From: Siphlonurus alternatus
Taxonomy: Eukaryota > Arthropoda > Insecta > Ephemeroptera > Siphlonuridae
DNA length: 64,000 nucleotides
NCBI GenBank assembly: GCA_949825025.1
Contig: OX463788.1
Location: forward strand, 36,462,390-36,526,389
Direction of reading: 5' to 3'
The position numbers were made by a program, and so were the translations under genes. Below the pieces are notes generated by a model. That model saw nothing but the letters and a program-made list of their open reading frames with translations, was not told the origin of the DNA and ran no database searches. The first letter of the stretch is position 1. Each line of letters opens with the position of its first letter. This document shows, one piece after another, positions 37,232-61,030 of this stretch.

Positions 37232-37402
37232 AACATATTCATTCATTCATTCATTCATTCATTCATTCATTCATTCATTCATTCATTCATTCATTCATTC
37301 ATTCATTCATTCATTCATTCATTCATTCATTCATTCATTCATTCATTCATTCATTCATTCATTCATTCATTCATTCATTCATTCATTCATTCATTCATTC
37401 AT
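37232..37402. repeat. ATTC tetranucleotide microsatellite
   Basis: About 42 uninterrupted CATT units, ending in a T run. Confidence 0.97.
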
Positions 37403-37587
37403 TTTTTTTTTAATATCTCCATGTCATGTGCTTCGATGATCTTCGAATTCTTCAACCTTGTTACAGTTGTACGGGATTTAAGTGAATTTTATACATTGAT
37501 TAACAGTTGTGTTAATAGCTTTACTGTAGAGCATAATATATATATTATTTATTATTTATTTAATATAATATAAATAAATAATAAATC

Positions 37588-38668
37588 AGACAAATTACCG
37601 ATTACACTTGGAATTCCTCAAGGAGGAAAAATGTCAGCCACATTGTTTAATACAGGAACAAATGACTTATCAGATCATGTCAAGAATGCGGTATTAGTAA
37701 AGTATGCTGATGATATTACAGCTATAATCACAGCAGTAGCCGAAGATGAATTAATTCGTAAGATTAAACTTACTATTGAAGAGGTACATACATGGTGTAC
37801 AAATAATAAGCTAATATTAAATTCAACTAAAACCGAATACATCCAATTTCATTCCCCTAGACAAATCCCTTTGAATAGTTATTTGTTGCAATTAGCCGGG
37901 AAAACAATTAAAAGAGCAGAGTCTGTTAAGTTTCTTGGTCTACACATTAATGAAAGTTTGGATTGGTCTTTACATGTAAATGCGATTTGTAAGAAGATAA
38001 ATTCGGCCAATTTTATGTTATATACAATCAGGAATCATGTATCTCATGAAACCTTGCTAACCATATATTATGCGTATGTTTATCCACATTTGGCATATGG
38101 CATAATAAATTGGGGATGTAAATCGGAACTATTGAATCGATGTTTTGTTTTGCAAAAGAGAGCACTTAGAACGATTTTAAGAATACCAAAAGGACAGTCG
38201 TGTGTTTCACATTTTAAGGCTAATAAAATGTTAACTGTCCCTTGCATTTATATTTTAAATTGTGCCTCATTCAAAAAAAATCATCCAAATTTTTATGTTC
38301 AGAATGATGGCTATCATGACTATAATACTAGGAATAAATCGAATGTAGTTACTGAAAGACATAACACACAATTTTTCAAAAACTGTGCAATGTATCAAAC
38401 AGCAAAATTTTATGAATTTTTACCAGCATGTTTGAAAGAAATAAAAACCAGTAAACTTTTTCGCACAAAATTAAAGAATGTATTGATCAATAAAGAGTTT
38501 TACTCTATTAAAGCTTTTGAGAGTAATAAAATGTCTGAAAAAGTATTATCAGGATTATAAAATAAACAAAATTATAAATTTACATATACATTGTATTGAC
38601 TGATATATATATATGTATGTATGTGTATATATACATATATGTATGTGTGTGTATATGTGTATGTGTAT

Positions 38669-57735: not shown

Positions 57736-59683
57736 CAGAAATAAAAATGATATATTTGTATTTGTATTTATTTATTGCACATATAGAACCGTGAGGTACA
57801 AAATGCATGTTTACAATATTTTAGTATTGCATTACCTGTAAAAGAAACATTAAATTTAAAACATATTATCATCAGTTTTATATTATTATTACAATTACAA
57901 TCATACATATTATAGTATTATCTAGTCAGTCCACAATACCTAAGAAATAAAACTTTTATATAAAAAAAAAAACAAAAACATTTTTATTGATAGAAAACAA
58001 TCTGAAACTAATTCTTAATTATATTACTATATATATTATTAAATCAATCTATTACAAGGAAAGCATTTACATTATTTAAAGCTGTTCTTTTTCTTGTTAT
58101 GGCATAAAAATTGTTCTGCAGTAAAAATTCAATCAGTTTTGACCTAAACTGTTGATTACTAGGTAGATGTTTTAAGGTATCAGGAAGATTATTGTACAGC
58201 TTTGGGCCTAATAAATATAAGCTTCGCTTTTCTTGTTCAGATTTAGCAACATCTATATAAATTTTTGGAGAATTTCTGGTGTTATGACCTGTTATTTTTT
58301 CATTTGTCGTAAAATTGTCAATATTTTTCCTTACAAACATTATCATGGAAAATATGCATAAACAAGGAAAATTTAGTAGGCCTAGTTTTTGCCACAAGCT
58401 ATTACAACTTACTCCAGATTTTGCTCTAACCATACAACGTACAATATTTTTTTGACATTTAAATATTGAATTGTTTTGGCACTGATCTGATGATCCCCAA
58501 AGAAGTATACCATATGTTAAATTGGACTCAACATATCCATGATATACAACTTTTAGGGTGTCTAAGTTACATACCTTTCTAAGCTGCTTCATTGCAAAAT
58601 TTACAGAATGCAGCTTTTTTTTTCAAATATTCAATATGTAAATTCCAGCTGAGTTTATCATCAATTATTAAACCAAGATATTTACAACTTTTTACTAGCT
58701 TCACACCAGATTGTGCTTCAAATTGTGCTTTTGTGTCATCTGATCTATTAAACAACATAAAATTTGTTTTGCTATGGTTCATGATCAATTTATTTTGATT
58801 AAGATAAACTTGTAAGAGTTCCATAGCCTTTTTCTTATTTGCAATAAGTTCACTCAAATTTTTGCCAGTTATTAATAATACTATATCATCTGCATACAGA
58901 ATGATTTTACAGCAACATCCTAGTGCATATTCTAAGTCATTAATAAATAGTACAAAAAGCAGTGGTCCTAATACTGAACCCTGGGGCACACCATGATTAC
59001 ACCCTAATGTCTCAGATATATATATATATATTACTTTCTCTCCATTCTCATTTATATCACTTATTTGTACATATTGAGTTCTATCTTTTAAATAAGATTT
59101 CAAAAATTCAAGACAATTCCCCCTAATACCAAGAAAATCAAGTTTTTTTAACAATATATCATGATTGACAATATCAAAAGCCTTTTTAAGGTCTATAAAT
59201 ACAGCAAGGGTAAAGTTTTTTAGCATATTCTGCTCATTAATTGAATTTACAAGCTCAACAACAGCTGTTGTTGTTGATCTACCAGGAGTAAAGCCATGTT
59301 GACATTTTGAAAAAATATTTTTTGAAATACAAAAATTTTGAATCTGGTTTTTTACACCGATTTCTATGATCTTAGATTTCCCCGAGAGTCCAGCAATAGG
59401 CCTTTGTTTGGTAATATCTGTAGTATTTTTAACTTTTTCAACAGCTGTAACTTTTGAAGTTTTAATAATCGAGGGAATACGCCTTCACATAATAAATATG
59501 ATATAATAACACTTAATGGCTTAGCAATATCTTCCCCTATACATTTTATTAGTTTATCAGATATTTCATCTGCACCAGAGGAAGTTTTATTTTTCATTTT
59601 ATTAATTATTTTTAATACATCCATCTCGGAAAGAGGAAAGAAAAACATAGATTCACTTGTTCTAGGCCCATATATTTTAAATG

Positions 59684-60724
59684 GATTCCCGGACAACTCG
59701 GAGCGGGGGCAACTGGGAGCCGGACGGCTCGGAGCCAAAGGTGTTTGCTAGGACAACTCGGAGCGCGGACAACTCGGAGCGCGGACAACTCGGAGCACGG
59801 ACAACTCGGAGCGCGGACATCCTGGAGCCATGGCAGGACAACTCGGACCGCGGACAACTCGGAGCACGGACAACTCGGAGCCATGGCAGGACAACTCGGA
59901 GCGCGGACAACTCAGAGCGCGGACAACTCGGAGCGCGGACAACTCGGAGCGCGGACAACTCGGAGCAACGTATAATATACATATTCGGATCAATTTCAGC
60001 TATTTTCATCGGTATCCGGAGAACTCCCGCTCCGAGTTGTCCGGGAATCATTTTCATCATAATGTCATTATCAATATTTCTCTGCATTCTTATATGCACA
60101 TAAAATATTCTATAGCAACCATTTATAATTATATTTTTCTACTTAATTTATCCACTTAATTATCCACCTCATTCGTCGTTTTAAATTTCCTTGTGTATCT
60201 AATATTTGAAATTAAATATTAATTTCAAATATTATTATTTGGCCGGCAGGTAAGGAAACGACACCTATCTCATTGAACATTTTATCAATCCGCATTATAA
60301 GCATAATATAAATAATATAATAATAATAATAAATTATAAATGGTTGCTATAGAATATAATATGAAACTTGATGTGCATATAAGAATGCAGAGAAATATTG
60401 ATAATGACATTATTATGAAAATAGCTGAAATTGATCCGAATATGTATATTATACGTTGCTCCGAGTTGTCCGCGCTCCGAGGTGTCCGCGCTCCGAGTTG
60501 TCCTACCATGGCTCCGAGTTGTCCGTGCTCCGAGTTGTCCGCGCTCCGAGTTGTCCTGCCATGGCTCCAGGATGTCCGCGCTCCGAGTTGTCCACGCTCC
60601 GAGTTGTCCACGCTCCGAGTTGTCCGCGCTCCGAGTTGTCCGCGCTCCGAGTTGTCCTAGCAAACACGTTTGGCTCCGAGCCGTCCGGCTCCCAGTTGCC
60701 CCCGCTCCGAGTTCTCCGGATACC
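59684..60724. mobile_element. Fold-back, probably Mutator-like element with 16-bp tandem repeats in both arms
   Basis: Ends GATTCCCGGACAACTCGGAG and GAGTTCTCCGGATACC are flanked by TTTTAAATG (59675-59683 and 60725-60733), a 9-bp duplication. Both arms contain GGGGGCAACTGGGAGCCGGA, GGCTCGGAGCC, then an array of a 16-bp unit GGACAACTCGGAGCGC (about 59752-59966 and inverted at about 60455-60655), some units carrying CATGGCA. An AT-rich inner arm (TATTGATAATGACATTAT) is also inverted. Excision plus one duplication restores NDTPFKIYGPRTSES of the host LINE. The long RTTRSADNSERGQ-like frames are artefacts of the tandem repeat. Confidence 0.88.
60011..60049. mobile_element. 39-bp deletion derivative inserted in the fold-back element
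   Basis: GGTATCCGGAGAACTC followed by CCGCTCCGAGTTGTCCGGGA and ATC: the first 16 bases equal the right end (complement) and the last 23 equal the left end (complement) of the surrounding element family. ATTTTCATC is duplicated at 60002-60010 and 60050-60058. The right arm has the uninterrupted version (complement near 60410-60430). Confidence 0.9.
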
Positions 60725-61030
60725 TTTTAAATGGTGTATCATTAATATTTAGGAGTGCATCCTCAACTGACGAGATAAAATATGTATTTAACATGTTGGA
60801 AATACGTTGAGGGTCTGTGACATTTTCTCCTGTAAGTGGGCATGTAATTATATTTTTTTTAAATGAATTTTTTTCTCCTTTCCTATTTCCTGTTTCAGTT
60901 TTGACTACTGTCCATACAGCTTTGGACTTATTTTCAGATTCATTTACAAATTTATACAAATAATCCCTTCTATTATTTCGTATGCTTCTTTAATATTGTT
61001 TATTTAATTTTTTAACTTTTTTTTGAATTT

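Follow-up and report, generated by a model that had tools for sequence, protein, structure and literature searches.

Can a transposase move a piece of DNA only 39 bp long? This question is raised by a locus of Siphlonurus alternatus at which a unit made up of nothing but the two ends of a foldback transposon lies within one arm of a larger element. If the 39 bp were a real substrate, they would push the lower size limit of cut-and-paste elements below any that we found in the literature, and would constrain how a transposase pairs its ends. We analysed the locus in a 64,000-bp stretch of DNA (C11:36462390-36526389, hereafter the window) and across the genome (455.7 Mb, 102 contigs).

The foldback element and the 39-bp unit

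The large element (59684..60724, plus strand) is a non-autonomous foldback element of 1041 bp with terminal inverted repeats made of 16-bp repeats. Identical copies of TTTTAAATG border it on the left (59675..59683) and right (60725..60733) as an exact 9-bp target duplication. Its terminal motifs are asymmetric, the left end being GATTCCC followed by GGA (59684..59693, plus strand) and the right end, read on the minus strand, GGTATCC followed by GGA (60715..60724), a layout that is compared with Tm1 below. Each arm holds a tandem array of period 16, namely 12.9 copies of GGACAACTCGGAGCGC in the left arm (59751..59966, plus strand) and 11.9 copies in the right arm (60458..60657, minus strand). 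The short centre between the arms (60114..60329, plus strand, bounds approximate) contains an inverted copy of its own left flank, an arrangement which resembles, and may reflect, templated end joining. The element as a whole appears to have inserted into a non-LTR reverse-transcriptase stretch on the minus strand (58044-59683 and 60734-61000), as both flanks, judged by eye, continue as one kind of minus-strand coding sequence; an RVT_1 match is found in this stretch at 58579-59226.

The 39-bp unit lies in the left arm at 60011..60049. It is read on the minus strand (GATTCCC...GGATACC), where 23 bp of the left end run directly into 16 bp of the right end; on the plus strand the 16 terminal bp of the element's right end come first and the 23 terminal bp of its left end follow. 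A single G at the join can be assigned to either end, which gives a 1-bp overlap. Within the 39-mer the 7-bp motifs and GGA triplets of both ends are preserved, along with one complete 16-bp repeat, and the sequence forms a hairpin (DNA fold -8.9 kcal/mol, z -2.4). On either side is a plus-strand copy of ATTTTCATC (60002..60010 and 60050..60058), making an exact inner 9-bp duplication. Alignment of the two arms shows that the opposite arm (about 60330-60724) has neither the 39 bp nor one of the duplication copies, and its lone 9-bp site (60414..60422), ATTTTCATA on the minus strand, differs from ATTTTCATC by one base.

Chance can be excluded, given that GATTCCCGGACAACTCGGAGC has two matches in the window against none expected, and that the genome pattern described below gave 31 matches against none in a reversed control. 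The first-pass annotation, which had described a unit of 16 bp of one terminus and 23 bp of the other, flanked by an exact 9-bp duplication within one arm of a larger element of the same family and with an empty site in the opposite arm, was correct, its coordinates to the base. Exact ends and an exact 9-bp duplication also fit the look of a transposition product, as had been proposed.

Relationship to Mutator/Foldback families

Judged by anatomy, the large element would belong to a Tm1/Muta1-like family of the Mutator/Foldback type and so to the MULEs. Tm1, a Mutator/Foldback (Phantom) family of root-knot nematodes, is a close match in those parts of its description that concern element structure (PMC3169594). 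It has 9-bp duplications, differing 7-bp end motifs that lie outside the repeat and are followed by GGA, a variable number of ~14-bp repeats after the GGA (the period in the window family is 16 bp), MITE-like non-autonomous members, and two arms slightly unlike each other; the sequences themselves differ. Elements of the Tm1/Phantom type are moved by a MULE transposase, which in Phantom has a FLYWCH finger. In our family, 45 of 50 surveyed elements have an exact 9-bp target duplication, the Phantom-type feature, and both arms show the Tm1-type sequence of asymmetric 7-bp motif, GGA and short tandem repeats (GATTCCC-GGA, GGTATCC-GGA and the 16-bp arrays).

Muta1, an active MULE of Aedes aegypti, is alike in general layout, at least in the portions of its report drawn on here (PMC5225508): it has type 2 foldback ends, whose short terminal motif precedes a 12-bp repeat spaced by 3-4 bp, duplications of 8 or 9 bp, and over 300 putative non-autonomous derivatives variable in repeat number and centre. 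The Muta elements are placed in the Phantom group of MULEs, with 8-10-bp duplications, in the relevant part of PMC6446971. The terminal motif of Muta1, however, is a 10-bp imperfect palindrome, whereas the window family has two different motifs; a 10-bp palindromic terminal motif of the Muta1 type is absent from it, the two 10-bp ends being different and, by eye, neither of them palindromic. The derivatives described in the same portions of the Muta1 report do not include one of 39 bp.

One site in many carriers

We scanned the genome for two exact copies of the 10-bp ends with 5-35 bp between them, that is for units of 25-55 bp. All 31 matches (reversed control, 0) were the identical 39-mer, and all 31, the last of them being L073, lay at one and the same site in copies of the large element, as their flanks showed. 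Dispersed copies with target duplications of their own, as expected of an independent 39-mer family, were absent from these 31 matches. The first-pass annotation had proposed that the minimal substrate of the transposase can be as short as 39 bp, and had held that a lack of other short copies with independent duplications would speak against its reading; exact-end units of 25-55 bp in this genome include no such copy, and the proposal gains no independent support.

We then surveyed 50 distinct large elements. With the window element as query the genome gave 143 matches (40 of 236 candidates scored); the 39 elements obtained in this way are the window element's closest relatives among the 40 candidates scored, and the query itself contained the 39-mer. 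The other 11 were found through the 39-mer pattern only and are thus preselected for having it. The unit was present in one arm of 42 elements (including a partial copy, L070, whose other arm was not seen), in both arms of two (L039 and L057) and absent from six (L006, L007, L008, L013, L015 and L016), giving 46 units in 44 of the 50 elements. The confinement to one arm in 42 of 44 carriers supports the earlier view that the insertion came later than the formation of the arms. Copies with the same 39 bp in both arms, which had been held to speak against that view, do exist, but are restricted to L039 and L057, where we infer later copying from arm to arm.

The units are well conserved. Thirty-one were exact, ten had one mismatch and four had two, and the unit of L061, which is interrupted, was counted as having three. 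An inner duplication of ATTTTCATC/ATTTTCATC flanks 41 of the 46; four of the other five have a 1-bp change on one side and the fifth is L061. At the ATTTTCATC site the unit was never found in another register or orientation (0/46), and with the exception of the interrupted L061 it is exactly 39 bp long in carriers up to and including the most diverged, L063. The outer duplications behave differently: they are exact in 45 of the 50 elements (all but L004, L029, L056, L066 and L070), and all 45 are distinct. A common site and inner duplication together with outer duplications that all differ indicate that the unit inserted once and that the carrier was then amplified. Furthermore, in 12 carriers a unit end is damaged to GGTATCGGG or GGTATCGGT, and ten of these keep an exact private outer duplication, so the ends of the unit are not what moves the carriers.

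Repeated independent insertion of 39 bp at this site through a target-site preference would also give many copies with a common site and duplication. It is nevertheless extremely improbable, as the unit, site and junctions are the same bar small drift, the arm is the same except in the two both-arm elements, and the outer duplications all differ; inheritance suffices to explain the shared unit, site and junctions, with no need for a target rule exact to 9 bp. We conclude with considerable confidence that the unit entered the left arm of an ancestral non-autonomous Mutator/Foldback element once, long ago, and has been a passive passenger since, on the grounds of the shared site, the same inner and different outer duplications, the drifted unit ends in a subfamily, and the presence in one arm in 42 of 44 carriers. 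Rice provides a precedent, in that the MITE Os0548 is nested at one site of coding MULEs and inherited intact or in part, according to the section of PMC3903597 that treats it. The rice unit is a 274-bp Tourist-like MITE, whereas the window unit consists of the carrier family's own ends and is 39 bp throughout. The locus is a clear example of a nested remnant riding along with a foldback transposon, and the unit can be used as a subfamily marker.

Age of the unit

The element with the fullest centre seen, L063 (L063:301-2433; C2:41192602-41194734), is 2133 bp long, has the target duplication TTGTCAGTT and holds the unit in the usual place, both copies of the inner duplication being unchanged. 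L035 aligns to positions 1-814 and 1587-2133 of L063, L036 to 1-620 and 1532-2133, and the window element (L001) to 1-583 and 1648-2133. From these matches the smaller centres, that of the window element included, look like overlapping internal deletions of an L063-like centre. The unit is present in all 27 elements with a long centre, against 17 of the 23 with a short one. When the 11 long-centre elements that owe their discovery to the 39-mer alone are set aside, it is present in 16 of 16. The division into short and long centres was the only part of the centre-class table used, the orientation-dependent columns being unreliable with palindromic arms.

All six copies lacking the unit are short-centre elements. 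The inner length is 485 in the window-type carriers L001, L004 and L012 and 437 in L006 and L008, a difference of exactly 48 bp, and the copies lacking the unit retain one ATTTTCATC. Since L063 and all the long-centre elements carry the unit, it is most simply regarded as old in the family, and the six empty copies as precise 48-bp losses or as recombinants.

The opposite polarity, in which absence of the unit is ancestral, the gain took place among short-centre elements and long centres came later, would account for the restriction of the six copies to the short-centre class, and the array match between the arms of L006 and L008 and the inner-arm match in L013 and L015 could then be primitive. 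We consider it improbable, given that the fullest centre has the unit and that the long-centre elements have it without exception, also once those selected by the 39-mer are set aside. A tree of the arms of 48 of the 50 elements (L061 and L070 were incomplete and were dropped), with L063 as outgroup, did not decide the polarity, most copies forming an unresolved comb; a preliminary tree of 39 elements was equally poorly resolved. In the best tree L013 and L015 stand beside carriers (the L019 group) and the other four copies lacking the unit fall in the comb. Monophyly of the six was not rejected (AU p 0.15).

Probable losses and second copies

The right array of L006 and L008 matches the left one in every unit or in almost every unit, and that of L007 is similar; in L013 and L015 left-arm sequence is found in the right inner arm. 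On the strength of these matched arrays and inner arms, copying from arm to arm seems to occur within elements, the alternative being a primitive symmetric state. The presence of the unit in both arms of L039 and L057 can be explained by such copying as well. A further possible route of loss is slippage from one 9-bp repeat to the other, across the 39-mer and its hairpin.

Precise excision of the 39-mer by a transposase, instead of repair or slippage, would leave the exact 48-bp difference and the single ATTTTCATC seen in the six copies. In yeast, excision by the Muta1 transposase of elements bordered by 8-9-bp duplications was precise in about 90% of revertants, as given in the part of PMC5225508 that covers excision. 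We regard excision as an unlikely cause of the losses, however, because 9-bp direct repeats around a hairpin-forming unit are a slippage substrate as well, and a hypothesis of transposase-independent slippage with at least 8 bp of homology exists for IS256 (cited within the same part of PMC5225508). Five of the six copies (L006, L007, L008, L013 and L015) moreover show signs of arm-to-arm copying, and the AU result allows all six to share one origin.

Origin of the 39 bp

A single insertion that is amplified with its host leaves the same trace whether a 39-bp unit jumped or a longer one collapsed in place, so the two are indistinguishable by that trace. In a model of collapse, a longer nested copy would have inserted into the left arm of the ancestor, making the 9-bp duplication, and would have lost its interior in place through interrupted repair after excision or through hairpin deletion. 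The deletion would have been sealed at the 1-bp overlap, leaving 23 + 16 bp. The large element would then have moved by means of its own outer ends, taking the unit along. Later repair of one arm from the other may account for the second copy of the unit in two elements. Such repair, either alone or alongside slippage or excision between the 9-bp repeats, may also have precisely deleted the unit from the six copies that lack it, or from ancestors of theirs.

We lean towards collapse over direct transposition of 39 bp, because nothing this short was found elsewhere with a duplication of its own, either in the exact-end genome scan or in 299 kb searched with mismatches, and because the shortest demonstrated transposition that we found is of 80-120 bp. 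The latter is the experimental lower size range for MITE transposition given for Mos1 minute transposons in the part of PMC2642840 that deals with size; Mos1 differs in being a mariner. A longer nested copy at the ATTTTCATC site, which collapse predicts, was not present among the 46 units, and a collapse that stops within 23 and 16 bp of the ends is a special requirement that counts against it. The larger insert of L017/L061 was considered as such a longer copy and rejected, as it is a different foldback inside the 39-mer. In L061 (C3:28805500-28810500) this second foldback, of a related family with the ends GGTTCCCGGA / TCCGGATACC, is inserted within the 39-mer with an 8-bp duplication, ATCCGGAG.

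A single transposition of the unit as such, for which the transposase must pair and integrate ends 39 bp apart, is possible but doubtful. It accounts well for the exact ends and exact 9-bp duplication, for the retention of both 7-bp motifs, both GGA triplets and a full 16-bp repeat, and for the constant 39 bp in carriers as diverged as L063 (L061 being interrupted). A second independent insertion, however, was absent from the 31 exact-end matches in the genome. A search of 299 kb of fetched sequence (overlapping loci counted) for other units of 20-400 bp with up to two mismatches in each end and an 8-10-bp duplication likewise gave no genuine case; besides the known site it returned four palindrome self-matches and one local duplication in L057. 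We therefore rejected independent ultra-short insertions as a class of candidates, the exact-end genome scan and the 299 kb searched with mismatches having given none outside the known site. As the genome scan covered exact 10-bp ends, short copies that inserted independently and whose ends have since mutated could exist. The Mos1 work, in the same part of PMC2642840, further states a bending limit near 90 bp. Still less probable is a working minimal substrate, in which the 39-mer inserted once, was precisely excised in the ancestry of the six elements that lack it, and had its ends synapsed far below the bending length of DNA. The locus also warns against taking a perfect duplication to prove that a fragment moved at the length it now has.

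Individual copies and neighbouring sequences

The centre of L063 contains two short spliced-ORF-like pieces on the plus strand (L063:1000-1089 and 1140-1268), possible remnants of an autonomous element or of a captured gene. Two 30-aa pieces matched no Pfam family, and a 43-aa piece gave Pfam matches below the cut-off only; in the PDB it had one match, a weak one to a bacterial lectin (E 0.006). One of the 30-aa pieces may resemble the start of a FLYWCH finger.

In L057 (C11:27339876-27342914) the site and the start of the 39-mer are tandemly duplicated in one arm, with 34 extra bases before the unit. The unit-bearing arm of L004 (C10:21112836-21116878) has right-type units and a right-type end outside and left-type units inside, as would follow from recombination between two arms, and the survey of outer duplications gave none for this element. 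Elsewhere in the window a fragment of a second reverse transcriptase lies on the plus strand at 37631-38560 (RVT_1, E 3.7e-09), adjoined by an ATTC microsatellite at 37237-37403.
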